Positions 7,101-51,900 of a stretch of 64,000 nt of DNA are shown piece by piece. Where the stretch lies: the NCBI GenBank assembly GCA_914767715.1, contig OU612066.1:1183001-1247000 (forward strand), in the 5' to 3' direction. How positions within the stretch are numbered: position 1 is the stretch's first letter; every line of letters starts with the position of its first letter. Source of the stretch: Membranipora membranacea (Eukaryota > Bryozoa > Gymnolaemata > Cheilostomatida > Membraniporidae). The notes under the pieces are model-generated. The model was not told where the DNA came from and ran no database searches. It saw only the letters and a list, made by a program, of their open reading frames with translations. Position numbers and translations under genes: made by a program.

Positions 7101-10100
7101 CAATACCACAATACCACTTATTGCATATACTGATTATGTCAATACCACTTATTGCATATACTGATTATGTCAATACCACTTATTGCATATACTGATTATG
7201 TCAATACCACTTATTGCATATACTGATTATGTCAATACCACTTATTGCATATACTGATTATGTCAATACCACTTATTGCATATACTGATTATGTCAATAC
7301 CACTTATTGCATATACTGATTATGTCAATACCACTTATTGCATATACTGATTATGTCAATACCACTTATTGCATATACTGATTATGTCAATACCACTTAT
7401 TGCATATACTGATTATGTCAATACCACTTATTGCATATACTGATTATGTCAATACCACTTATTGCATATACTGATTATGTCAATACCACTTATTGCATAT
7501 ACTGATTATGTCAATACCACTTATTGCATATACTGATTATGTCAATACCACTTATTGCATATACTGATTATGTCAATACCACTTATTGCATATACTGATT
7601 ATGTCAATACCACTTATTGCATATACTGATTATGTCAATACCACTTATTGCATATACTGATTATGTCAATACCACTTATTGCATATACTGATTATGATAA
7701 ATTCACATAAATTTTTGGCCGCTGTAATGATAATAAAAACTAATGATAAATTTATGAATATGCACTATTAATTTCATTATATAGTTATGATATTATAGAT
7801 TACCTGACTCAGGCTCAAATGGTATGTAGGTTCGTCCCCTCTTGTTATATTTACTACATTGATCCTGTCTTACATCGTCGATTTCCTTTTGGCAGGTCTA
7901 CAAGACGATAAACAAATGAAGAACACTTTCTTAATCATAGCAGCACCCACCACCAGTCAGGCTGTCTGAATGTTATATATTGACCCATACTGCATGTCCT
8001 AACAACCTTAGTGACCAAGTGAAATGCTTGAGAAAATGCGTCATTGGGGAGAGGTAGATTCTCCCTGAATGAGGTTGGTCAATTTTTGATATATCCTTTC
8101 TCCCTCACACTGACAGTAATAAACACCTTCATTGCTGCCAGGGAAGGAAACTGGGTTATGTTTCTTGTTTAGGTACAAGCAACACTATCACACATATTTA
8201 AAATGTGTACAGAAACATTATATTGAAAACTTGATTCACAAGAGGAAAAATATGACTGTTGGAGACAATGTAGCAGTCAAACAGATAAATCACAGCCAGA
8301 ATATTATATCTGTTGATATAGACTGTATTATTGAGAAAAGTTGTGCTCACCCTATAAAACACTCGGTGCTTCATGCATTGTCTTCTAACTTTGAAACTCA
8401 AATTGGCGAATGTTTTACACACCAATCTCATCTGTTCCTGTAATATAATCACACACAACCATGCAGAGACTCAAAGTGTGGCTCAGCAGACAGCATGCTG
8501 TATTCACAATATCCAAAACAGAGTCTAGAAACATGAATAAGGAGAAAGGATTTATCCTAACTCTGCAATACTACGCAACGCCAATCATTAAATTGGTGCA
8601 ACAGTTTTTGTAAAGTCTTGCATGCAATATCATCTCTAACATTAAGAGTACGCTGGCTGTACATGTCGTACTTACCGGCAGATCACACAGTCTCAGCTCA
8701 AACTCATTTCCTGGGCAGTCTTTACCACCAAGTGTCGGCCTGAGGAAGAGAAGGCAGACATATAATACAGCAATAACATAAGATATCATAACTCACCATA
8801 TCACTTGTTAGAAGTTGAAAATTGAAACAACATTTCATTTAGGACATAGTAAGAAACAACATTACTTTGGATGGTCGCAGGTCCTGGTCCTGGATCTAAT
8901 GCCTCGTTCACATGTAGTCGAGCACTGACTCCAGCTGGACCATCTCGACCAGCCACCATCTATACTCCTCAATCTACCAGATGAGGCCTCCTTACTAAGC
9001 CATACAGGGTCATCTGGGTTAGCTACCACACATCGAGAGTTCAGGCACCACTGAAATATTATTGTTATAATTTTATGTTAGTTATTACCATCTGGTGGCC
9101 GTTACCCCTGTGTACGATGGGTCTATATTACATGTTATACCTTGTACAAGAAGATGAATGGTGGTCAGCTTAGTCATCATAATGGGAGTAATGTAAAGTT
9201 TTACCATATGACATGAGAATATATATTTGGGTTGACTTCTCGATAACTACATTAGGTTTTTAATCAGATTTACCCCTAAGCGGCCTTGGACTGAATAGAA
9301 ATAATTGATGCCGTTATAACATGAAAAATGAAGAGACCCTACTTAGGGCCTTGGAGATTCTATATCAAGGCGTAGGCTACTCATTGCCTATGATCCAACA
9401 AAGATTTTGATTGTCTAGGTTGTCTTCTTATATTTCTTGAGTAGGCAACTACTCTATCAATGCTAAAACCTGTGTATAGCCACTTACTCTGTCCCTTCCA
9501 CAAGTACTTCCTGGTAGCGGTGGAGCTCTCTTAGTCTTACACAGATATCTGTTATCTGGAGTAGAACACCACAAGTGTTCACAAGGATTAAAGTTGTGTG
9601 TCACCTGAAAATTAACAATTAATCTCATTAAACAACTTACATTAAAGAGTCAAGAGCCGAGAAAGGCATGTTAATATAATATTTATAAGAAAACTTATGA
9701 TACCTAGTTATCGTTTCTACTAATAATGATTCTGGGAGGATGAACCAGGTAGATTAGATAATACTCACTCTAGAACAGAGTCTGAATCCGGTACCAAAGT
9801 CTTTGACACACTGCTCATCCAGATCCCAGTTCCTACCTATAGGGATATCCAGCTCAGGCCAGTTTGAGTCAAAAGGGCTGTCATTCATACAATACAGTGT
9901 GCTATAAAATGATAATAAGGTAGAATTGAGACGTACTATGCTCAAAAAATCAGTACAATAAAAACTATCAATAAGAAGAGATGGATTGGCTGGAACATTT
10001 CTCTTATCGATTAATCTTTCAATTGATACCTCATCACAGGGAGAATAGAATTTCTCCCTGCTCATCAGTACCCCTGATGAATGCTAATCCTGTCTACAAA

Positions 10101-16539: not shown

Positions 16540-19500
16540 ATGGGATTAAAAAGTGAAGCGAAGGATTATCTAATATTAGTAATAACTCTCATATCTTGTG
16601 GACTGAGCCAACAGAAAGTCATACACGGTAAGCTTTCTGAATAACAGTTATCATTTTGGGAAATTTTCAAATCAAGTTATCCGTGATAGGCAGTCTGGCC
16701 CTATTCTCCTCATATTATTTTTTGAAAAGCATGCAAGCTCTGCTTGTAACTTGGTGCTGTTAGCCGAAACGGGGTGGTTAATTTGAATGGAATATGCACA
16801 TCTCAAACTAATCTAGTTGCAAACTGTCTAGTGCATTTCAGTGTTTATAATTTAGCGCAGAAACTGGATTCACATTCAGAAATACTTCGTTTAAAAATTG
16901 AAATCCTATGCATTTCTAGGCAGTATGCTGACATAACAATCATATTTGTCAAGAAAATATATTTTCCAGCTGTACATGACTTGTTATTCTGTTATAGAGT
17001 CGTGTTATGGAGATATATGTTATCAGGTTCTGGCGTTAGGTCAGGCTAGAAACTGGCCAGGAGCGACGTTAAGATGTGAGTCTCAGAGTCTAGAAGGAGG
17101 CGCTTTCTTTGATAAGGAGGTGATGAATGATATGGACAATGTGCTGAGGTCACTCGGTATGACGGCCTGGATAGGACTGAAAATAGAGACTGTGTACACA
17201 TGGAGGTGGTATGATGGTTAGTTGTCTCCCTGTAGGCTTTATTATTTGTCTCAATATTCCCACTTAGAACCCGCGAATCTGAGATATTTATTTTGCTCAT
17301 ACTATCAATAATAACTCAATATCATTGGATTATCATTCAGGATTCTTCATCTTTCATTCAGACTCTCAACTTTTCTCCAGCCTGAAGATTTATGCGGAAA
17401 CGAATTTAATTTAAATCTATTTTGCAAAATTAAAATTAATCAATGTTGTAGTAAGTTTTTAGTTTTTACAAATTCTCTGCATGTATCTATGAGAAACATT
17501 TGAGCTAAACAGATATACCAATAGCGAAATAGCCATATTTTGATTCCAATGAATTTTGCTGCCTGTATGAAGGGGCGGTCTTCCTATTCCCACATCACAG
17601 ACACAAGAATACAAGCTTTCTATCCGGGTATACCACCAGTATAACACATAATAACTTGGAGCACCTTATACCCTCTTCTTCTATGACTTTATTGATATTT
17701 ATGTATTTTAGGGTCACCAATCTATGGAATCACTGTAGCTGTCAAGAGACCAGGGAATTGTCTTCTGCTACATAACGGTGTTCTATTTATGGACTCATGC
17801 AACTCTGAATATCAATGTCTATGTGAAAATATTGCATTGTCTCGTAAGTTTCACAACACAAACTCAATTTTATAACAGTCATAATTCTATGTAACTTTCC
17901 TGCTTAGAAGTTCCACTTTGTACGTGCTATCTCACCCGGATACACCACTGCCGGATAACTACCTAACCTTGTCAGAGCTTAAGTTAAATAGACCTTGATA
18001 TTTATATTGAGTTATGGGTTTTAGATTTGTTGTTTTTTCTTCAGTAGGTGAATGTAATGCCCGAGGAGGACTGGTTCTCGATAATCGCTGTGTTTATGAT
18101 ACTGGTACTCCACGGATATGGGTAGAATGTGCGCAGAGATGTGTAGCAGGGGGAGGACAACTAGCCACACAATCTATCATCAAAAACTTGAATTTAGCCA
18201 GTGTGACGGCCGATTTCTATCGGCTCCCTACATGGATTGGTATCACTAAATCCTTCATACAATGGGTGCGACGTGAGTAACCTGATGTTATGGCAATACA
18301 CCGAGGGGCTCATAGTATTCTTATGTAATGAATGGGGAATATCTGTTAAGTATTATGAAAGCATCTAGCTCCATTTCCATGTCTGTTGGGTATAATTGAT
18401 TAGATTAAAGAGTGTCCCAGTCTCCCTCCAGTAACCCTCCTTCTTGCTCTCTTTGATCTCTCCTCCGATAAGAGAAATGTAGTTACTACCACTCATAGAT
18501 AAAAGATGTCATATGCACAGCCAGAAGGCTCCCCACCCGGCACATGACCTGGTTAATTACAAAGGTAACGCTCACCCCATCTGATAACTACATTGTTGTT
18601 TTGATTGTAAGACTGATATGGAATAGAAAAGATGATAGCTTCCAACATATGGTTTGATATTCAGTCGATACTCTGGTGTGAACATTACATATTTTGACCT
18701 CATAAGGCGATCAACTGATGTTATCTGTTGTTATTTAGTGATCAGATCTATGATTCCATGAAGTTTGATTTTTATTTACAGCGTCACCTCTCGACCCGTT
18801 TATATTAGACTGGGCTAATACTGTAAAACCTAACCCCGATTATCAGAGCGAACACAGAGAGTGCGCTGTACTCGGCACGGGAAGTGGAGTCGCGACTGTC
18901 AGCTGTGGTCAGAAACTACCACATATTGTCTGTCTAAAAGGTCAGCTCAATATCTAAAATACTCTCAATCCGATAACATCATGAGATTAATCCTAATAGT
19001 ATATTTTTACCAGGCTCTGAGGCTATAAGGCTCTATGAATATGAAATAATAATATCTTTATTACTAGATCATGGATTACAATAAAACTGGGAGGGGGGGT
19101 AACTCTGCGGTCCAATTGTATCATCTTTTTTTGTCCATTTATTGGACTCATATAAATAACATCATTTTGTAAGGAAAGAAAAGCCACACTTGATTGAGTT
19201 GATCACATATTCATCTTATTTAATTTCCAACTAGTATCTTAAATGGCAGATTTCTGATTTTAGCTCCACCAAAGTATATGCTACCGGTGCCACCACCAAG
19301 GGTAGTTCCAAAACCCATAATCTATCAGCCTGTACCAGCACGCCGCACCACCACAATACCATCAACCACTACACCAACAACTACCACATATACAACCCGA
19401 ACCACAACAACAGCTACATCAACGATTGCTACACCAAAAACCAAAACACCAACAACATCTACAAAAACAACCGCTACATCAACAACACAAACACCAAAAA

Positions 19501-22500
19501 TCACTACACTAACTACAGCTACACCAAGAATCACTTCACCAACAACTGCTGTATCAACAACCCAAACACCAACAACCAATACACCAGCCCAACCAATCGT
19601 AGCAATAACAGAGTTGCCTAGCCCAACCGTCACTGCCTGGGTACCATTCTTTTCATCTACTATGACTATGTTTTGGAGCACAACAGGGGTACAAGAGGGT
19701 ATAACTTCTCCTCCAACTACTGCTCTGCCAACTACTGAACAAACCAATGAGAATCTGACTGAAGAACCTCTTGCTACAGCCACACCTCTCATAACTGAAC
19801 AAATTTCGGCTGGTAAGTTTGTTTTCTGTGGACTTTGGTAGCTCTTGTGAATGAGTATAAAAGTTGAAGATATCTGTTGAGCAGAATAGTTCAGTTCTGA
19901 TAATAGCCGCCTCATATTTAAATCCCCAAAAATTTAAAAACCTATTTTCAAGTGTTCTCAATGATTGGGTATGAAACACATGTATATCATGACAACTCTC
20001 TTTTCAAATCCTGGTAATTTAACATCATGGTGTGCTGGTAACTTTACAAGGCGCATTTCAGATAATATAACCTTTGGTTGGTATGATCGGGTTTGATTAC
20101 GGTGTGTCAAAATCACTGCCCTTAGGAACTCTACAATTAACTTAGTTTCTCAATGAGTATATGGCTGATAGAGTGAACACTGTGAAGGGACAAATCTCTG
20201 TTCTGATACAGCAACAATTCTTTTGTCCCATATTTTAGTTCATCTTTATGATGTTCATCATTGATCTGTGTCTGGTAAATCTAAAGTGAATATTTCTGAT
20301 TTCAGCTACATCAAATTATATCCCTCCTGTGCTAACACCAAATATAATTCCAAGACTAGCTACATATCAACCTGTCACAACAACAAGACAACGCACAACT
20401 ACGACAACCACAACACCAACATCAACAAGCACTCCAACAACCACTACAAAACCAACAGCAACCACTACAGCAACCACAACAAAACCAGCAACAACCACTA
20501 CGACAACCACAGCAAAACCAGCTACAACACCGACAACTACGACAAAACCAACAACAACCACTACACCAACATCCTCAACACCAGAAACAGCAGTCATATC
20601 AAAACCAAAGCTTCCTCGGTCAACAAAAACTGCCCTGGTACCTTTCTTTTCTTCTACCATGACTATGACGATGTTCTGGAGCACAACTGAGATGGAAAAA
20701 TACACTGATGATATCACAGCTGCTCTACCAGCTGCCGCTCCTCCTGGTACTGGTAGACTGAGTGAGAATCTGATTGAAGAACCTACAACTCCTTTCCTCA
20801 TAACAGAAGAAAACACAGCTGGTAAGTTCATGTTCTGTAGACTTGTGTAGTACTCTGACTTATGAATGAGAATGAACATCGAAAGCATCTGGTGTGCAGA
20901 ATAGCTGAGGAAATAGTTCTGATAATACAATAAAGACAGAGTTAGACACAATTAGTTTACGTGTAGGTTTTATTGTGTGTTCTGGTTGTATTATATAGGT
21001 ATGGTAAATGGACAGATGGAAGTAAGGACTAGGCAGACTATAAAAGGTAAGTTTCTGTCTGTCTGTGCAGAAGATTGGTAGACTGGGTGGTACAAAAACC
21101 TCGTCCATAAACCTTTTGTTTAATACTACGAACCATGTCTGTCTCAACATTATTGTAAAATGCTGTTAATCAGACAATTTCTTATTGTCAGAGTCACAAC
21201 AATGAACTTCGTTGGTTACAAAGCAAAAGCATCTGACTCTTCTATACAGTATACTCCTCACATGCCCTTAGCAAAAGCATATATGAATATAACTTCTACA
21301 TTTAAAAATAGATAGCTTTAACATTAAACAACAGCTGATAAAAATCATAATACCACTTAACACCTATAACGTATACTATCATGCTTATACAGATTGATAT
21401 TGTATTGATATTGTATTGATATTGTTATACAGTGGTGAGAACCCAGTTCCCTATCTGGGTAGTACTCGGTGGTATACTCGGCTTTGTATTACTTACTCTA
21501 GTGACTGTAGTTATTGTCTTCATATCTCTACTCACCAGACGACGGTGAGCCAAACTACTCTCTATGAACAATAATAATAATTGTAATAAGTAAAGTGAAC
21601 AGCTCCTTCCTCTACCCCCTTCCTTCCCCATATCATGTGTGAATTATCTATCTGAGGTTTTAAGGGTTGGAGTGGGGTTTGTTTGCTCATGTAAATAGGA
21701 CAAGCAAATCCCAATCACTGTGTTTGTATGTAAATTTTGAGATCGAACTAAGTTGTCACCTATTCGCTCATCCTTGAAATATGCATACATTCCCATTCTG
21801 CGATGAAACTTCAAGAACATTTTCCATCGCTGGGACTTGAACCCGGGATTCTTTAGACAAAGTCTTTGATGACAACCTTCGAGCTCAGCGTGAACTGGGA
21901 GGTATATCCGTGGTTCGAACAGCCTCAAAATTAGCTCAGGTCAATCCATGAAAAAATGGTGAAAAGCTCACCTTGAGAGCATAGGCAGCACTGGACTCTA
22001 GTTTGTTGCCAAGGCATCTGGCAGCTATTTCACACTTAATCTTTACTTCACATCCAGGAAATTGAAGAAAAAAGCTAAGATGAGGACCTTCTCGACAGTT
22101 TCCACTGCTCCTCCGATGATGACTGTGATAGATAACTATGGTGCTATAGGAACAGTCGATACTCTCGGTGGAGTTAGTACATTCATGTGTACCGATCGCC
22201 ACTCACTGGCCTCTATACCTGATCACGTGACTATATTCACTGAACCTTCTCTCATGCTAGACACTGGATACCAGATACAGGTCAGTCGGGTGCCCCTCTC
22301 CTTTAGTGTATACTGATTCTCTATAAGTCAGTCTTGCTGTGAAGTTTGATGGTGATTCCCAAAAGATTTTTATGAAAACGGTTTGAATAAATAATTCAGC
22401 TATTAAAGATTTAGGTAATACACAAATGGCATTGTATCGTACTTGGAGAAAAGAGGAATAGATATAAAACAGGGAATAATGGTTTACCTTTCATGCTAAA

Positions 22501-35885: not shown

Positions 35886-38800
35886 TTATACCTCAGTGTC
35901 ATCAGCCTTATCACCAGATTTACTCTACAAATATTAAATTGTATTTAAAGTCTGAACAGCAACCATCGGTGTTCGGTGATACACACTTTGTATTTGTAGG
36001 CAGAACTTTTCTTAGAAGTAGAACACATGTAAGCATTCATACATTAAAGTGACATTCCTACTTGGCCATGTTTGGTATGGTTTGGAAGATCTCAGGCTGA
36101 AAAGTCATTAGGGCATATGAAATAAAACAGCCTGTGAACTTCTGCAAAGTCTGAAAATTGGGATCATAGTAGATCATAGTAGATCATAGTGATTTATTGC
36201 CTCCCCCTAACCACTATGATCCACTATGATCCTTGTTAAAATAATTGAGAAAAAACTAATTGCTATTTTCCACAATTTTCATTGTTTTATTATTTATATT
36301 TGCCCTATGAACTCACAATATTTGATTTACTGGGGTAATATATCCACTTTTTTAATAAGACTGACCCTTTAATAAAGTGGTTAGGTTCAAATCAGTGAAT
36401 GACAGACTGGTGAAGGTTCCTTATTATTGAACCAGCTACGCCTCATGGCACTTACTACTCAGCCAAACCTGCTGAGAAGGGGAGAGCGAAGGGTTACAAA
36501 TAGGTAGATAAACACGTAACAAATTACTGATGAAGAATAGAGCCATATTATGACAACATAAAACTTTTCTTACCTGCTGCCTTCCCCTCCTGTTAACATT
36601 CATATTTACAAATCGCTAGAGATTAGCCTACATAGAGATTTGTCTACCTAGAGATTTACCTATCTGGAGATCAATCTACCTAGAGATAGGTAGTCTCACC
36701 GGAATCCATGAATGATTTAGATTGCTGGATGACCAAAGTAAAGGAGTGCTCGGTACAAGCAAATTATTGCCCGGTACATAATGAAATCAGTCGAGGTAAA
36801 CTATGACAATGGTGACACATGAGCTATGACTATCAGTTACCTGTTACTATACCTTGGGCTCATCAGTAGTCTTAGCTGAGAACATGCTGGCGTAGAGACG
36901 TTTTTCTCTATCTCTCTCCTGTTTGAGATGATGTTCAGCTATAGTCAGCTGATTCTTTGCTGTTTTATTAGCAGGATCTATTTCAAGCACAGTTTTAAAG
37001 TCTACTCTTGCTTCCTTCCAGTCTTTGGATCCGGCATAAGCCTAAAAATATTATATAACAATATTAAATAGTTATACAGATATCAGATAATAGATCAGCT
37101 TATGGGATGAGAGAGTAAAAAAGGTATTGGCGTATAAGGGTGTAAGGGTTCTTCACTCTGTGCTGTTGTCACATAGTAAGGGTTCTTCGCTCTGTGCTGT
37201 TGTCACATAGTAAGGGTTCTTCGCTCTGTGCTGTTGTCACATAGTAAGAGTTCTTCACTCTGTGCTGTTGTCACATAGTAAGGGTTCTTCACTCTGTGCT
37301 GTTGTCACATAGTAAGGGTTCTTCACTCTGTGCTGTTGTCACATAGTAAGGGTTCTTAACTCCCTCATATGTTGATAAACATTCACTTCTACTTGCTATA
37401 ACTGGGAAGGTGAAATTTTAATAAACCCTGGTCATTCTTGTCAATGGCAGACACTCACGGACCGAATCAAATGATTGCTGTACATAAATACAAGATGGAC
37501 TGATCCAAGGATTAATTAATTTAATTAATTAATAGCAAAATAGCATGGAGCAAAGCATACAAACCAACAAAGTACACCAGAGATGTCAAAATATGTTATG
37601 TTATATAACAAGTGGGCACAGCAGTAAGTATTACCTGACCCCTCCTGAATAGAGATTTGACATTTTGATCATCTAACTGCAGAGCTTCATTACACATCTC
37701 CTTGACCTTAATCCAGTTCTCCTCTTTAATATAACACATAGCACAGTTATTATATCCTGTTAGCCTGAGCGTCTGCCGGGTCTTCAGCTGCTCCTCGCTG
37801 AAATCCAGGTCGTCATCCAGCCATTTTGTGATAAGCTTGTACTTTCGCAAAGCTTTGGAATATTGGCCTTTCTGAAACATGCAAAATTGATAATAAATTC
37901 AATCCATATTTGACTTCCGCTGTTTCAATGCATTAAAACTCTGACCAGAGGAGTACAGAAGAGAAGTTATCATTGACAGTGAAGATTGATCTGATCTGGA
38001 ACTCCTACCTTGAAGAAGTTAGTGCCTTTAGTTTTAGCGAGTTCGGATTGAGATAATTTTTCTACTGGGTCCATTTCCCAGCTTTCATGGGCCTTCTCCA
38101 TATCAACCAGGCTGATCTGAAATTAAAGAAAAGAAGTAAATGACAAAAATGTAATGATTTACTTGATAAATATGGTTATCTACCCTCTTGTTCTCATATT
38201 ATTTTCCACCTTCAAAATTAAATATGATGTAAACCTTATTGTAAGCCTTATATGAAGTCTATAGAGATGAACATTACATACCATGTACTTGATTGTGGCG
38301 TTAGGAGGTAGCCCATACTCAGCGGGAGGCTGAGCCCCGAAGGCGTAATCACCAGAGAATGTCAGCTCTGACTCCTCACTCTTCTTGAACTTCATCAGAG
38401 CCATATCCAGACCATCCGGTAGATTATTCTCTACAGCGTCACCGATGAGATACTTTACTGTTCTCTCATCAAACACTCTACCCTCATGTGAGCCACGAAC
38501 CTCAACTATAACCATACATCACAGGGTTTACATAAACATATATGAGTAGTCAGATGATTGTGAGTGTTACACACATTATACAAACAACTATTATACACAA
38601 CAACACAATAGAGCGAGGACAATCATCTCAATTTAGATATCATCACACAGTAACTCAGCTGTAATTTAACACTATTTTGTCATCTAAAAGGTTTTAGATC
38701 ATGTCACAGTTTTATAAGATTTTATGATGCCGATAACTTTACTGGACATTGATAGAACTGTGAACAAGTTGAACTGGCTGCTGTCTGCATGCCAAGACAG

Positions 38801-41800
38801 ATAAACCAATAAATAAAAAACAGTGGATGGACAGTATCTAATATGAGACAGAGGCTCTCTCATTACTAACCTGAGACAGAGGCTCTCTCATTACTAGCCT
38901 GAGACAGAGGCTCTCTCATTACTAACCTGAGACTGAGGCTCTCTCATTACTAACCTGAGACGGAGGGTCTCTCATTACTAACCTGAGACGGAGGGTCTCT
39001 CATTACTAACCTGAGACAGAGGCTCTCTCATTACTAACCTGAGACTGAGGCTGTCTCATTACTAACCTGAGACAGAGGCTCTCTCATTACTAACCTGAGA
39101 CAGAGGCTCTCTCATTACTAACCTGAGACGGAGGCTGTCTCATTACTAACCTGAGACGGAGGCTGTCTCATTACTTACCTGAGACTGAGGCTCTCTCATT
39201 ACTAACCTGAGACTGAGGGTCTCTCATTACTAACCTGAGACTGAGGCTCTCTCATTACTAACCTGAGACTGAGGCTGTCTCATTACTAACCTGAGACAGA
39301 GGCTCTCTCATTACTAACCTGAGACTGAGGCTGTCTCATTACTAGCCTGAGACAGAGGCTCTCTCATTACTAACCTGAGACGGAGGCTGTCTCATTACTA
39401 ACCTGAGACTGAGGCTCTCTTATTACTAACCTGAGACGGAGGCTGTCTCATTACTAACCTGAGACAGAGGCTCTCTCATTACTAACCTGAGACTGAGGCT
39501 GTCTCATTACTAACCTGAGACAGAGGGTCTCTCATTACTAACCTGAGACGGAGGCTCTCTCATTACTAACCTGAGACAGAGGCTGTCTCATTACTAACCT
39601 GAGACGGAGGCTCTCTCATTACTAACCTGAGACAGAGGCTCTCTCATTACTAACCTGAGACGGAGGGTCTCTCATTACTAACCTGAGACTGAGGCTCTCT
39701 CATTACTAACCTGAGACAGAGGCTCTCTCATTACTAACCTGAGACGGAGGCTCTCTCATTACTAACCTGAGACTGAGGGTCTCTCATTACTAACCTGAGA
39801 CGGAGGCTCTCTCATTACTAACCTGAGACTGAGGCTCTCTCATTACTAACCTGAGACAGAGGGTCTCTCATTACTAACCTGAGACTGAGGCTGTCTCATT
39901 ACTAACCTGAGACTGAGGCTGTCTCATTACTAACCTGAGACAGAGGGTCTCTCATTACTAACCTGAGACGGAGGCTGTCTCATTACTAACCTGAGACTGA
40001 GGCTGTCTCATTACTAACCTGAGACAGAGGCTCTCTCATTACTAACCTGAGACAGAGGCTCTCTCATTACTAACCTGAGACTGAGGCTGTCTCATTACTA
40101 ACCTGAGACGGAGGGTCTCTCATTACTAACCTGAGACGGAGGGTCTCTCATTACTAACCTGAGACTGAGGCTGTCTCATTACTAACCTGAGACTGAGGCT
40201 GTCTCATTACTAACCTGAGACAGAGGCTCTCTCATTACTAACCTGAGACAGAGGCTCTCTCATTACTAACCTGAGACAGAGGCTCTCTCATTACTAACCT
40301 GAGACTGAGGCTGTCTCATTACTAACCTGAGACAGAGGGTCTCTCATTACTAACCTGAGACAGAGGGTCTCTCATTACTAACCTGAGACTGAGGCTGTCT
40401 CATTACTAACCTGAGACTGAGGCTCTCTCATTACTAACCTGAGACAGAGGCTCTCTCATTACTAACCTGAGACTGAGGCTGTCTCATTACTAACCTGAGA
40501 CGGAGGCTGTCTCATTACTAACCTGAGACTGAGGCTCTCTCATTACTAACCTGAGACAGAGGCTCTCTCATTACTAACCTGAGACTGAGGCTGTCTCATT
40601 ACTAACCTGAGACAGAGGCTCTCTCATTACTAACCTGAGACAGAGGCTCTCTCATTACTAACCTGAGACTGAGGCTGTCTCATTACTAACCTGAGACGGA
40701 GGCTGTCTCATTACTAACCTGAGACTGAGGCTCTCTCATTACTAACCTGAGACAGAGGCTCTCTCATTACTAACCTGAGACAGAGGCTGTCTCATTACTA
40801 ACCTGAGACGGAGGGTCTCTCATTACTAACCTGAGACAGAGGCTCTCTCATTACTAACCTGAGACTGAGGCTGTCTCATTACTAACCTGAGACAGAGGGT
40901 CTCTCATTACTAACCTGAGACAGAGGGTCTCTCATTACTAACCTGAGACGGAGGCTCTCTCATTACTAACCTGAGACGGAGGCTCTCTCATTACTAACCT
41001 GAGACGGAGGGTCTCTCATTACTAACCTGAGACAGAGGCTCTCTCATTACTAACCTGAGACTGAGGCTGTCTCATTACTAACCTGAGACAGAGGGTCTCT
41101 CATTACTAACCTGAGACAGAGGGTCTCTCATTACTAACCTGAGACTGAGGCTGTCTCATTACTAACCTGAGACTGAGGCTGTCTCATTACTAACCTGAGA
41201 CAGAGGCTCTCTCATTACTAACCTGAGACAGAGGCTCTCTCATTACTAACCTGAGACAGAGGCTCTCTCATTACTAACCTGAGACTGAGGCTGTCTCATT
41301 ACTAACCTGAGACAGAGGGTCTCTCATTACTAACCTGAGACAGAGGGTCTCTCATTACTAACCTGAGACGGAGGCTCTCTCATTACTAACCTGAGACGGA
41401 GGCTCTCTCATTACTAACCTGAGACGGAGGGTCTCTCATTACTAACCTGAGACGGAGGGTCTCTCATTACTAACCTGAGACGGAGGCTGTCTCATTAGGG
41501 TGCATGTAGCCTGTACCGACTTTCCTCATACTCCTTATTATTCCTCCATCTGAGCTGTCAGTCAAATCTTCACCTAACGTGGAAAACAGCAAAGTGTATA
41601 TTTGTTATTAATTATTAATAAGTGATGGTTATAATATATCTTGAATAAAATAACAAAACTTATTGTCGTAGCGATTGTGTTTGTCAAGCAACCTCAAATC
41701 AAATAGTACGGCAGGTTATCATGTTAGACTAACCTTTCCAGCTGAAGAGCTCCACCTCAAACAGAAGAGTAGCACCTCCGGGTATCTTAGGAGGAGATCC

Positions 41801-43535
41801 TGAGTCACCGTAAGCGTAATCAGATCTACATATAAGTCGACTGATCTCTCCTTTCTTCATGGTGGCCACACCTTGATCCCATCCTTTGATTACCTGAGCT
41901 GAATTGTAACAAAAGCAGCACAATATATAATGATGTTCTACATTCAAAACCAAACATGATGTTAGTTATCCCAATATCACAGGTCAAAGATAAACCCACT
42001 AAATTGAGGTTCTGTATGGAGATTGCTCAATTAGCTCAGTATGGTTATTATCCAATGATTTACAGATGACTATTAGCTTGGCAGCAGAGGATGTCATGGT
42101 GTTGTGTGAATAAGTAATGAGTAAGTATGATTGTATGTTTCAGAGAAAGTTCCTGAAAATGTTGCAGGTATATTATACTAACTAGAAAAACCTGAAATGT
42201 TTTAGGATTAAGTATTATTTACACGAGAATGAAAGGTATTGATGAAGCAGGCTGTCTACATCCCATTCCACATGGCAACATAATCACTATAGACAGTCTA
42301 ACCAGTATACTATAATATTATCACGGAAAGTCATTACATACAATACACACCTTGACCGAGTTTGAATTTAAATTTATCACTTCTGTCTCTGCTGCTGTCA
42401 AACTTTTCTCCGTTAGCCAGGGTTCCTACATAGTGAACCACAACCTCATCTCCTGTTCCGGGACCCTCATCACCCGTACCTTCTTTGAGTGTCACCTGGA
42501 ATCAACAGTAATACACGGTATGTATAGAGCTAGCTTTTTGGACGAAAGAGTAGGCATATGGCCACCTATCAGCTACTTCCAAGAAGGCCATTAACAAGGT
42601 GATCAATCTAGCAGGATACCTTGGTGACTGTGAGTTTGACTCTATCAATACCATATATAACAGGGTGATGAAAACCAGATGCCTGCGACTTGTAGCGTCA
42701 GACCAAGATAACCCTGTTTTCACGTTCGACCAGCTACCATCAGGTCGATATAAGACTATCAAATTCCGTGTCAATCTCAGGTCAAACTGTTTTCGAGCAT
42801 GCTGTGTACGGAATGTGAATAGTATTCTTTTTTAGCCAGTAGTAATATTTTTTATGTTCATCTATATTTTTTCCTCTTTTCACACCAACCAAGCCAGATG
42901 CTGACAATTTTTAATTTTTATAACAGTTTTTAATGCTCACACTAAACAACATATTACTCAGTGATGAGTCAGTAATAATACAATCAATCAATCAATAATC
43001 ATTCTAGCCTCATGAAATGTTTAATTGATGCAGTGGTTCCTAGAAGGTAGGAACGAAAGAGGCATATTGGCAGCTCAAAATCTTGATCTGTGGCTATGCG
43101 ATCGTGGTCATACTTATTTGGGATATTTACATATGATAATAGTCTTTACTATGAGTTGCATTCTTGTTATGCATGAGAGGTCAACTCAGCGGAGGTTATG
43201 CCTAAGATCGGCCATGTAAATCAGCTTTCTGCTCTCTAACCATACCTAATAGGCACTATGGACTTTTTCATGTTCGTTTGGTTGATTAAAAATCATGCTG
43301 TTTGAGCTGACTTTACAGAATAGAGAAGTCAGAGGTACCCTTGGCAGGCTATATTATCAGAATTTTGTGTCCTTTGTAATGTGAACGATAAATGGAAAAT
43401 CAGAAACAGCATGAGACGAGCAATAACTTGATTGCATACCTTCCTCAAGCCCTCATCTTTGTCCTCGGAGATATCAACCGCTCCTTCTAGCAATTCCTCG
43501 GGTATCGTGTTGTTCGGAGTGGCAGCTATATCCAT
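35886..43535 (-). CDS. FKBP4: FKBP4/FKBP5-like immunophilin: two PPIase domains and TPRs
   Basis: Peptidyl-prolyl isomerase cochaperone; family members bind the Hsp90 C-terminus through the TPRs. Nine exons in coding order: 43440-43535, 42351-42495, 41734-41898, 41475-41573, 38282-38505, 38009-38116, 37635-37871, 36853-37041, 35886-35924; 433 residues against about 459 in human FKBP4. PPIase 1 (~33-135): [23 protein letters not shown] and [13 protein letters not shown]. The family's usual GQG is GQA here. PPIase 2 (~150-250) is more divergent ([19 protein letters not shown]). TPR region ~270-400 ([40 protein letters not shown]). The short last exon encodes an acidic end, GDKADDTEV. Exon 4 ends inside sequence homologous to the minisatellite that fills the next intron. 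The last exon is tiny; its call rests on a clean acceptor and phase. Confidence 0.9.
37141..37358. repeat. 34-bp minisatellite in FKBP intron 7, about 6 copies
   Basis: The unit contains TAAGGGTTCTTC and CTCTGTGCTGTTGTCACATA; copies differ only by a few substitutions (CGCTC or CACTC). It lies between TPR exons 36853-37041 and 37635-37871. Confidence 0.9.
38844..41497 (-). repeat. 28-bp minisatellite (~95 copies) expanded from the FKBP exon 4 splice junction
   Basis: About 2.65 kb of head-to-tail 28-bp units fills most of intron 4. Read on the coding strand each unit contains TAATGAGA, then CCTCTGTCTCAGGTTAG with variants at a few fixed positions (CTCTGTCTC, CTCCGTCTC, CTCAGTCTC and C/G swaps). 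The first unit overlaps coding exon 4: its last 22 bases (AATGAGACAGCCTCCGTCTC plus AG) followed by the donor gttagt are the repeat unit itself. The coding identity of that end is fixed by the protein family, since [15 protein letters not shown] aligns where FKBP4 enters its second PPIase domain, and by the in-phase junction to 38505. Spliced exactly at the first copy, the protein is intact; using any later copy adds a unit and reads straight into TAG. Confidence 0.93.
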
Positions 43536-48900: not shown

Positions 48901-51900
48901 GCTCTGTATGGTCTGGACCCAGGTGAGGTAGGTTTGTTGGCTTTTCTATATTTCCAATAAGAATCATTACGCTTACTATTGTCTAGGAATTAAAACAACA
49001 AGTAATGGTAAAATCTCCCCCTTTTTTTATCATCTGATCCACAACACAGCTAGTACCCATAAAGCCTCAAACTAATTTCTGCTGATCTTTTTTGTAAGTA
49101 ATCATTTACATATTTATCCAGTTTCTTAGTGTACGTGATATTCAGTTTATCTCTTGTCCTGGTCTAATCTATAGGTGTGGTGGTCTGCGTCTGATCTCGG
49201 CTGGATAGTCGGACATTCTTATATCTGCTATGCTCCGTTATTACATGGTAACACCACTATTATATATGAGGGTAAGCCTGTAGGTACCCCTGACAGCGGA
49301 GCATTCTTTAGGGTTCTAAGTCAGCACAACGTTGCGTCAATGTTTACAGCACCGACTGCTCTCAGGGTAATCAGAAAAGTGGTAAGTATTCTCTACTATT
49401 CTCTCGTATCAAAATTGTATTGTTATGATTGCAGTCATTATTATAATGTATATATGTATGATGATGATGAAGACCCTGAGGTGGGATCACAGTCAGAAGT
49501 TTTCTCTGCTAACCTGTCTAGTTATCTCTTGTTTTTTTAGTACAAACCCGTTTTAATTTCATTTCTTCTTGTTTTAGGACCCTCATGCTGAGGAAGGCAA
49601 GAAATATCTAATACCCAAGTGAGTTTTATTGCAGAGATTTCTGCAATTGTGTTCCCATATTACTTGGTTCCAATTAGCTTTGGAATGAAGCCTTTTTATG
49701 ACTCGTCACTTCATAGTCTATTGGTTTTTAAAACTTTAAGATGAATCGAAAATATGATATTACAGTGTCGCATTTGCATTGCATATTTGTCATGAGAGTC
49801 ATTGAGAATTATTGTGCTTCTCTTGGCAGTTTCCGTAACATGTTTGTTGCTGGAGAGCATTGTGATATAGAGACATCTCACTGGACTCACGAGGCGTTCG
49901 GTCGACGTCCCGTACTCGATAATTGGTGGCAGACTGAGACTGGTTGGGCTATTACATGTACTAATGTAGGGCTAGGCAATAAACTGGACCCACCTCATGG
50001 TGCTACCGGGGTACCTGTACCCGGCTGGAATGGTATGTACTCTTATAGGAACTAAGCTCATTTGCAATTATTGTTAATCCAATCAAAAAGAAAATAACAC
50101 TGTGACAGTCTTATTTACTTGCTTAATCAAACATATATAATGAACTGTATATTCAGCTATGCTCATACAGATCACCGTGACTGTACCACAATATCACCAC
50201 TTAGGGAGATTCACAAGTATACTGATGCAACCAAGACAGTTGATGTTATAAGAATTTACTAAGGACACACTTGTAGCCTAACAGCTGTGTTTTATTTTAC
50301 ATACAGTACAGGTGATAAGACCCGATGGGAGTGAAGCTGACCCACTCGAGCTCGGTAATATCGTAGTCAAGCAGCCTCTACCTCCAGGCTTCGCTGGTTC
50401 TCTCTATAGAAATCATGAGAGATTCGAGGAGTACTTCACTAAATATCCTGTGAGTGACTCACTATTTCACCGACTCTCATTTCACAGATCCGCAAATCTT
50501 TGCCTGTAGTCGGTCTATTCAGGACCTGTTTCTAGTATATGATCTTACCGACATACAGGCTTGAGATGAAAAAAATTTGCACATCGCAGTGAACTTTTTT
50601 GTTCTTCTCTTTTACGCTGGCTTGTATACATTTATTTCCTGTACATATATGTGTATCTGAGTAGTAGTAGTAGTAGTAGTAGTAGACATATCTGTGTATC
50701 TGAGTAGTAGACATATCTGTGTATCTGAGTAGTAGACATATCTGTGTATCTGAGTAGTAGACATATCTGTGTATCTGAGTAGTAGACATATCTGTGTATC
50801 TGAGTAGTAGACATATCTGTGTATCTGAGTAGTAGACATATCTGTGTATCTGAGTAGTAGACATATCTGTGTATCTGAGTAGTAGACATATCTGTGTATC
50901 TGAGTAGTAGACATATCTGTGTATCTGAGTAGTAGACATATCTGTGTATCTGAGTAGTAGACATATCTGTGTATCTGAGTAGAAGACATATCTGTGTATC
51001 TGAGTAGTAGACATATCTGTGTATCTGAGTAGTAGACATATCTGTGTATCTGAGTAGTAGACATATCTGTGTATCTGAGTAGTAGACATATCTGTGTATC
51101 TGAGTAGTAGACATATCTGTGTATCTGAGTAGTAGACATATCTGTGTATCTGAGTAGTAGACATATCTGTGTATCTGAGTAGTAGTAGTAGTAGTAGACA
51201 TATCTGTGTATCTGAGTAGTAGACATATCTGTGCTATGATACTATATAGAGGAGATAATGACAGCCACTATTGTTTTATATGACAGAGTTACTATTATCT
51301 TATCTGACAGGGTTACTATGACACAGCAGACTCTGGTTATAGAGATGAGGAAGGTTATATATCAGTCATGGCTAGAACTGATGACATCATCAATGTAGCT
51401 GGTCACAGGCTCTCCACATCAGCCCTAGAAGAGGTTATCTATTGTTGATATACTGTCTTTGTTATTTGAGATGAGAAGAGTCTATATACATAAATACACC
51501 GCATAAGTGTCAATATTAATATTGCTGATGTGGCATTTCATACATCAGCACCCAAATTGAGAGAGGGCAACTCCAAATTCTAGCTCAGTATACTGTCTAT
51601 TTACAGGCTATAATGGCAGAAGACGCTGTAGCAGAATGTGCTGTGGTTGGTATTAAAGATGAACTCAAGGGACAACTACCTCTCGGATTCTGTGTCATGA
51701 AAAACAGTAAGTTACGTCAACATGATATCTCTTAGGACGTACTGTTGATGGGTAGGAATCATGATAGAATATTTGGTCACCTGCTCTCACTATGTTAACC
51801 TGCAGTACTTATATTTATAAACTCGGTAGGGTTTACCTTAATCTGAAATAATCAGAGTAATCAGAGAATACATTGCTATATTCACAGCGGTAGATGATAA

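Follow-up and report, generated by a model that had tools for sequence, protein, structure and literature searches.

How does an intron come to consist largely of copies of its own 5' splice site? The question is raised by a minus-strand gene of the FKBP4/5 type in the 64,000-nucleotide stretch of Membranipora membranacea DNA analyzed here (the window). A first-pass annotation had proposed that about 95 copies of a 28-bp unit fill intron 4 of this gene and that the expansion was seeded at the exon 4/intron 4 junction. Our answer, which we hold to be highly probable, is that a junction-spanning tandem duplication in an intron older than the array itself grew to 94 units and that it represents a class of arrays that recurs in this genome.

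The gene was modelled with eight coding exons that encode 422 amino acids, with GT/AG at each intron (Table 1). Pfam searches placed the product among the FKBP4/5 proteins (TPR immunophilins), with PF00254 in two FKBP_C stretches and with TPR_1, TPR_2, and TPR_11 above the cutoff. The modelled protein had 2,701 homologs; the top one was FKBP4 of Bugula neritina (60% identity), and the other 119 of the 120 homologs listed (the best 120 of the 2,701) showed identities of 40 to 51%. Intron 7 of the gene carries another minisatellite (window positions 37142 to 37362; 34 bp, 6.5 copies, 97%), which by eye is not derived from an exon.

Table 1. Features of the FKBP gene and of the intron 4 array (window positions)
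Feature	Position	Strand	Basis
FKBP exon 1, coding part	43440..43535	-	Gene model
FKBP exon 2	42351..42495	-	Gene model
FKBP exon 3	41734..41898	-	Gene model
FKBP exon 4 (99 nt, 33 residues, phase 1 at both ends)	41475..41573	-	Gene model and ungapped FKBP4 alignment
Exon-adjacent unit (22 coding bases from the end of exon 4, then GTTAGT)	41469..41496	-	Unit cutting and gene model
FKBP intron 4 (2969 bp: 2610 bp of array plus 359 bp of remainder up to the acceptor ttatag)	38506..41474	-	
Intronic units 2 to 94 (each CAG/GTTAGT or a one-base variant)	38865..41468	-	TRF and unit cutting
Degraded 95th unit, donor lost (TCATATTAGA)	38837..38864	-	Unit cutting
FKBP exon 5	38282..38505	-	Gene model and FKBP4 alignment
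FKBP exon 6	38009..38116	-	Gene model
FKBP exon 7	37635..37871	-	Gene model
FKBP exon 8, coding part and stop (TPR repeat)	36847..37041	-	Gene model; TPR from Pfam

TRF, run on the window, reported an array at 38844 to 41497 (period, 28; 94.8 copies; score, 4524). Units cut in register, starting from the exon side, gave 94 full units from 41496 down to 38865, followed by a degraded 95th at 38864 to 38837. The proposed array is therefore real, but it does not fill the intron: it comprises 94 units and a degraded one and makes up 88% of intron 4, it stops at about 38844 to 38865, and the intron continues to 38506. Unit 1 is AATGAGACAGCCTCCGTCTCAG followed by GTTAGT; it matches exactly the end of exon 4 (41496 to 41475) and the start of intron 4 (41474 to 41469), which agrees with the earlier description of the unit as 22 coding bases from the exon 4 end joined to the donor hexamer.

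Eight of the 94 units, unit 1 included, are identical to the exon-adjacent unit. The genome-wide exact search, which covered this unit type, found the 28-mer eight times in the 339-Mb genome, every time within the FKBP array, and no dispersed exact copy outside it. Variation among the units is narrowly confined. Free variation is restricted to columns 8, 10, and 15. Column 4 deviates in one unit, column 24 in two, and column 25 in one; the other 22 of the 28 columns are invariant. Three unit types, distinguished at columns 8 to 10, occur with each of three bases at column 15, so that all nine combinations are present, and runs of as many as eight units reappear in the same order along the array. 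This pattern is probably a picture of unequal exchange or conversion inside the array. Outside positions 38800 to 41520 of the window, the best match of any 28-mer to any of three tested unit types was 18 of 28. The donor reads GTTAGT in 91 of the 94 units, GTAAGT in 1, and GCTAGT in 2; because 22 of the 28 columns are invariant, this retention of GTTAGT does not speak for selection on the donor. Folded as RNA, seven typed unit variants gave predicted hairpins of -4.0 to -7.0 kcal/mol, a possible aid to slippage. On the plus strand of 38844 to 41497, the reverse complement of the unit reads TTACTAACC; it contains TACTAAC, which we take to be a branch-point-like word, in about 90 copies on that strand.

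That the seed was the end of a coding exon was supported by comparison with the protein family. Over exons 4, 5, and 6, 143 residues aligned without gaps to FKBP4 (PDB 8ffv; E value, 7.4e-39), and exon 4 is in phase 1 at both ends, which bears out the coding status originally assigned to this exon end. Translated, the 22 bases from the exon give NETASVS and leave one base, which opens the following codon. Four residues of this seed, N, E, A, and V, agree with the family consensus (116, 116, 115, and 114 of the best 120 listed homologs, respectively). T164 and S168 differ from the family, which has G in 118 and E in 105 of the 120 listed homologs at these positions; the exon copy may therefore itself have been altered later by exchange with the array. 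Because an ungapped, family-conserved coding frame crosses the junction, exon 4 was taken as the source of the array. The identity of unit 1 with the junction, the conservation of the seed in the family, and the occurrence of the exact unit nowhere else together sustain the idea of a junction-seeded expansion.

All 33 exon 4 residues are present in 119 of the 120 listed homologs. The predicted FKBP4 of B. neritina is without exactly these 33 residues, with exon 3 joined to exon 5 at both boundaries. The Bugula genes were predicted with AUGUSTUS, with repeats masked and transcripts used as hints, according to the gene prediction part of PMC7576161, and the missing exon could be an artifact of prediction on masked repeats or a case of real skipping. 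Since what the prediction leaves out coincides with exon 4, Bugula probably has introns at these two positions as well, and from this one-species comparison intron 4 looks older than the array.

We propose that an initial short tandem duplication, covering 22 exonic and 6 intronic bases at the exon 4/intron 4 junction, arose within the preexisting intron of an FKBP4/5-type gene and that the array then expanded by slippage or unequal exchange up to 94 units, every unit bringing its own 5' splice site. The splice site on the exon side would have remained the donor in use, presumably because it is transcribed first and adjoins the exon, and the remaining copies would be removed with the intron. 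Exon 4 ends in phase 1, and therefore any later donor gives GGT TAG: past the exon 4 donor, one residue is read and then a stop, exactly as the first-pass annotation had stated for this gene. An mRNA that used a later copy would meet this TAG at once, and the mis-spliced RNA would be expected to decay. We infer that the exon-adjacent copy is the sole productive donor. The locus would thus offer a natural test in which the spliceosome chooses among 92 near-identical GT donors and every wrong choice leads to an immediate stop.

Repeats of this kind have been described in lancelets, where minisatellite-like tandem duplications of exon/intron boundaries, termed mirages, occur in the Adh3, globin, and troponin C genes and similar repeats are carried by PGBD5; in the parts of these papers that deal with splicing, RT-PCR is reported to show that normal splicing is undisturbed (PMC3087553, PMC3902484). 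The FKBP array has the structure that defines mirages, with units that span an exon/intron boundary and carry the AG/GT signals. Its unit is within the lengths given in the passages on lancelet repeats (10 to 72 bp in Adh3 and 150 to 160 bp in BflGb6), and, as described there, several genes are affected within one genome (PMC3087553, PMC3902484). Unlike the lancelet mirages, it belongs to Bryozoa and has an immediate stop after the first donor; it also comprises 94 units, versus the 6 and 3 recorded for two haplotypes of the lancelet globin gene BflGb6. Lancelet mirages are described there at both boundaries, whereas word triples in the bryozoan genome (see below) were in excess for donor words but not for the tested acceptor word.

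The human IFI6 (6-16) minisatellite is said (1995) to provide multiple splice donors, several of them reportedly used. Its repeat units, like those in FKBP, bear a donor adjoining an exon; unlike IFI6, any later donor in FKBP would give TAG. Human UBC likewise has tandem AGGT sites within a repeat array, but its units, as characterized in the relevant part of PMC10809524, are whole coding monomers, whereas the FKBP units are intronic and stop guarded. Sections of PMC3087553 and PMC2812944 discuss how introns can be gained when sequence bearing AGGT is duplicated in tandem; the FKBP case shares with that model a tandem duplication across a splice signal and differs from it in that the intron was apparently there before and has grown. 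A literature search on bryozoan intron minisatellites found none, and the text of the Flustra genome paper does not mention tandem repeat, satellite, simple repeat, or intron. Boundary minisatellites are already known as a kind; the phylum and the copy number are apparently new, at least to us, and they extend such repeats from lancelets to Bryozoa at an extreme copy number. The part that could become new is the genome-wide donor excess.

Further arrays that begin at exon ends were found elsewhere in the genome. A random sample of twenty 10-kb stretches yielded an HLH exon that ends in TTSK/gtaagt and is directly followed by 26 units of 21 bp (Pfam HLH, 9.5e-7, with the match stopping three residues before the exon end; PDB E value, 0.058). 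The word AGGTDAGT defined at least 20 loci among the matches listed (our own grouping), nine of which form one family and one of which is the FKBP array. The FKBP array, one look-alike, and all but one member of the nine-locus family were set aside, and the other ten arrays were fetched. Six of these ten begin at a coding-looking exon end (L030, L031, L032, L035, L036, and L038), with 13 to 30 exonic bases in the unit; the starts of L029, L033, L034, and L037 are not at a coding-looking exon end. In three of the six, homology certified the exon to its last residue: L035 and L036, which lie about 10 kb apart, are IP3 receptor (ITPR) exons (PDB E values, 6e-32 and 7.4e-16), and L031 is a NOMO2 exon (PDB E value, 4.5e-5). 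Weak matches below the Pfam cutoff were obtained for L032 (Asn_synthase-like, 8.3e-4; PDB E value, 0.69) and L038 (Csf1_N-like, 5.8e-4; no PDB match). Pfam showed no homology for the peptides of L030, L031, L035, and L036, the last three of which were matched in the PDB search.

In the 12 kb that contain both IP3 receptor arrays, two of the three arrays with a period of at least 10 and at least five copies are exon-end arrays. The immediate stop seen in FKBP is not general among the exon-end arrays of this genome: 2 of 12 putative exon-end arrays, 5 of which were identified by an open frame alone, stop within 2 nt past the first donor. The 24-bp unit of L036 (ITPR-b; G000:C1:32376100-32377400) is open, in frame, and reads VSHTAQIE repeatedly; use of later donors there would add residues to the protein rather than cut it short.

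Donor words were also counted over the whole genome, as three copies of a word within a short distance, a measure in which long arrays weigh more. GTAAGT triples numbered 6171 versus 1134 for the reversed word, and AGGTDAGT triples numbered 1333 (up to about 90 of which the FKBP array alone may contribute) versus 57. GAAAGT, a one-base change from GTAAGT, gave 252 versus 478, and the acceptor word TTTCAG showed no excess (571 versus 847). The excess of GTGAGT was weak (3523 versus 2121, plain GTGA repeats included), so that strong enrichment is not shared by all donor words. The single-site background was taken from 260.8 kb, i.e., the sample plus the window with two arrays masked. Single sites, again versus the reversed word, numbered 65 versus 28 for AGGTDAGT, 146 versus 266 for GTAAGT, and 221 versus 169 for TTTCAG; there were 155 single GAAAGT sites, about equal to the number for GTAAGT. 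Among 33 independent arrays in the window and 200 kb, 3 contained GTDAGT and none contained the reversed word. GTAAGT is thus strongly overrepresented in the minisatellites of this genome, and exon-end arrays genuinely exist at several loci.

The GTAAGT arrays were less clearly tied to exons. At least 15 loci were distinguished among the matches listed (our own grouping), and 13 were fetched. The matches listed were nearly all on the plus strand, and a minus-strand array at C1:230427 that fits the pattern is absent from them; therefore, they are not a full census. By eye, four of the 13 (L039, L042, L047, and L048) have an upstream AG and a frame open to the first donor, seven show no sign of an exon end, and two (L045 and L049) were counted neither way. 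The open frame to the first donor, with L040 and L046 excluded from this test, did not exceed that at random sites in length (Mann-Whitney P values of 0.33 for 11 GTAAGT loci and 0.15 for 10 AGGTDAGT loci). Nor did it exceed that at single GTDAGT sites (P values of 0.48 and 0.20, respectively). Because frame length does not discriminate, the loci that were identified by frame only (L030, L039, L042, L047, and L048) are called putative. A similarity of L042 to ribosomal protein L32 was taken as chance (PDB chains with E values of at least 0.035 only).

These counts bear on the main rival explanation, in which GTAAGT-like words are favored as seeds by replication or recombination and exon ends are affected because donors contain such words. 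This explanation differs from seeding at the junction over why the junction was hit, not over the nature of the array, and we regard it as a real possibility, although we lean against it. It is favored by the large gap between GTAAGT and GAAAGT triples (6171 versus 252) despite their similar numbers of single sites, and by the excess of GTGAGT, itself a donor word, which is weak and partly that of a GTGA microsatellite. The unremarkable length of the open frames at GTAAGT arrays points in the same direction, as does the result that none of five peptides from this set had a credible Pfam match (one OMS28_porin match, at 0.061, was below the cutoff). Moreover, a G preceded GT in only 1 of the 15 listed GTAAGT loci, by reading, versus 40 of 146 single sites, and among the matches listed the arrays are dense near one chromosome end. 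Against a motif-driven origin, AGGTDAGT, a fuller donor word with the exonic AG, is also enriched, and 6 of the 10 arrays fetched with it begin at a coding-looking exon end, including the 3 certified by homology. A more general proposal is that minisatellites in this bryozoan start preferentially and repeatedly at 5' splice junctions and would enlarge introns from the donor side. Extra donors downstream would be tolerated, with the first-transcribed donor used, and extra acceptors upstream would be used and purged. We offer this proposal tentatively and think it rather unlikely to hold; if the donor-word excess does reflect genome-wide seeding at exon ends, it would mean a steady route of intron growth with a clear polarity between 5' and 3' splice sites.

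Other explanations concern the FKBP array itself. The array could be regulatory, with the choice of decoy donors (TAG, nonsense-mediated decay) tuning FKBP dosage or with in-frame units lengthening proteins of other genes, on the pattern of the human IFI6 minisatellite. The retention of GTTAGT in 91 of 94 units and the in-frame continuation of the ITPR-b unit are compatible with this idea, but the hexamer is no better conserved than the rest of the unit (four of its six columns are among the 22 invariant ones, and two vary), and recent homogenization explains the uniformity of the units; we consider a regulatory role improbable. Even less probable, in our judgment, is recursive splicing, in which each CTCAG/GTTAGT would act as both acceptor and donor and the intron would be removed stepwise via zero-length exons. 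Tandem AGGT sites of dual specificity are documented for human UBC in the relevant part of PMC10809524. Pyrimidines occupy 7 to 9 of the 11 positions before CAG in three unit types; the exon tails at other exon-end arrays, however, are by eye mostly not pyrimidine rich, so recursive splicing would be peculiar to FKBP. Tandem arrays are generally error-prone in assemblies, and an artifact in array length or exon contact, or else an unrelated minisatellite that resembles the exon by chance, might be suspected; this array, at 2.6 kb, is shorter than typical HiFi reads. The assembly was built from PacBio HiFi data at 66-fold coverage, as given in the assembly details of PMC10290214. A chance resemblance would have to yield 22 matches at 22 exonic bases, against a best nonarray match in the window of 18 of 28, and we give artifact or chance hardly any credence.

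Donor-word arrays seem to be dense near chromosome ends, with at least 15 GTAAGT loci within 1.37 Mb of the start of C1. On C2 the positions concerned are 0.85 and 1.22 Mb, and the FKBP array itself lies 1.2 Mb from the start.

Other repeats in the window were also noted. At 51267 to 51319 on the plus strand, a 24-bp unit in 2.2 copies abuts an apparent exon start and forms a small acceptor-side boundary duplication. The exon is presumably acyl-CoA-synthetase-like; Pfam gave no match for a 41-amino-acid piece of it. Two minisatellites appear young, one at 7109 to 7696 (31 bp, 19 copies, 100% matches) and one at 50678 to 51185 (25 bp, 20 copies, 99% matches); both were considered as exon-end arrays and rejected, since by eye they are not at exon donors. 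Degenerate ACN-rich tandem repeats occupy 19350 to 20583, where one plus-strand frame could be read as threonine rich.
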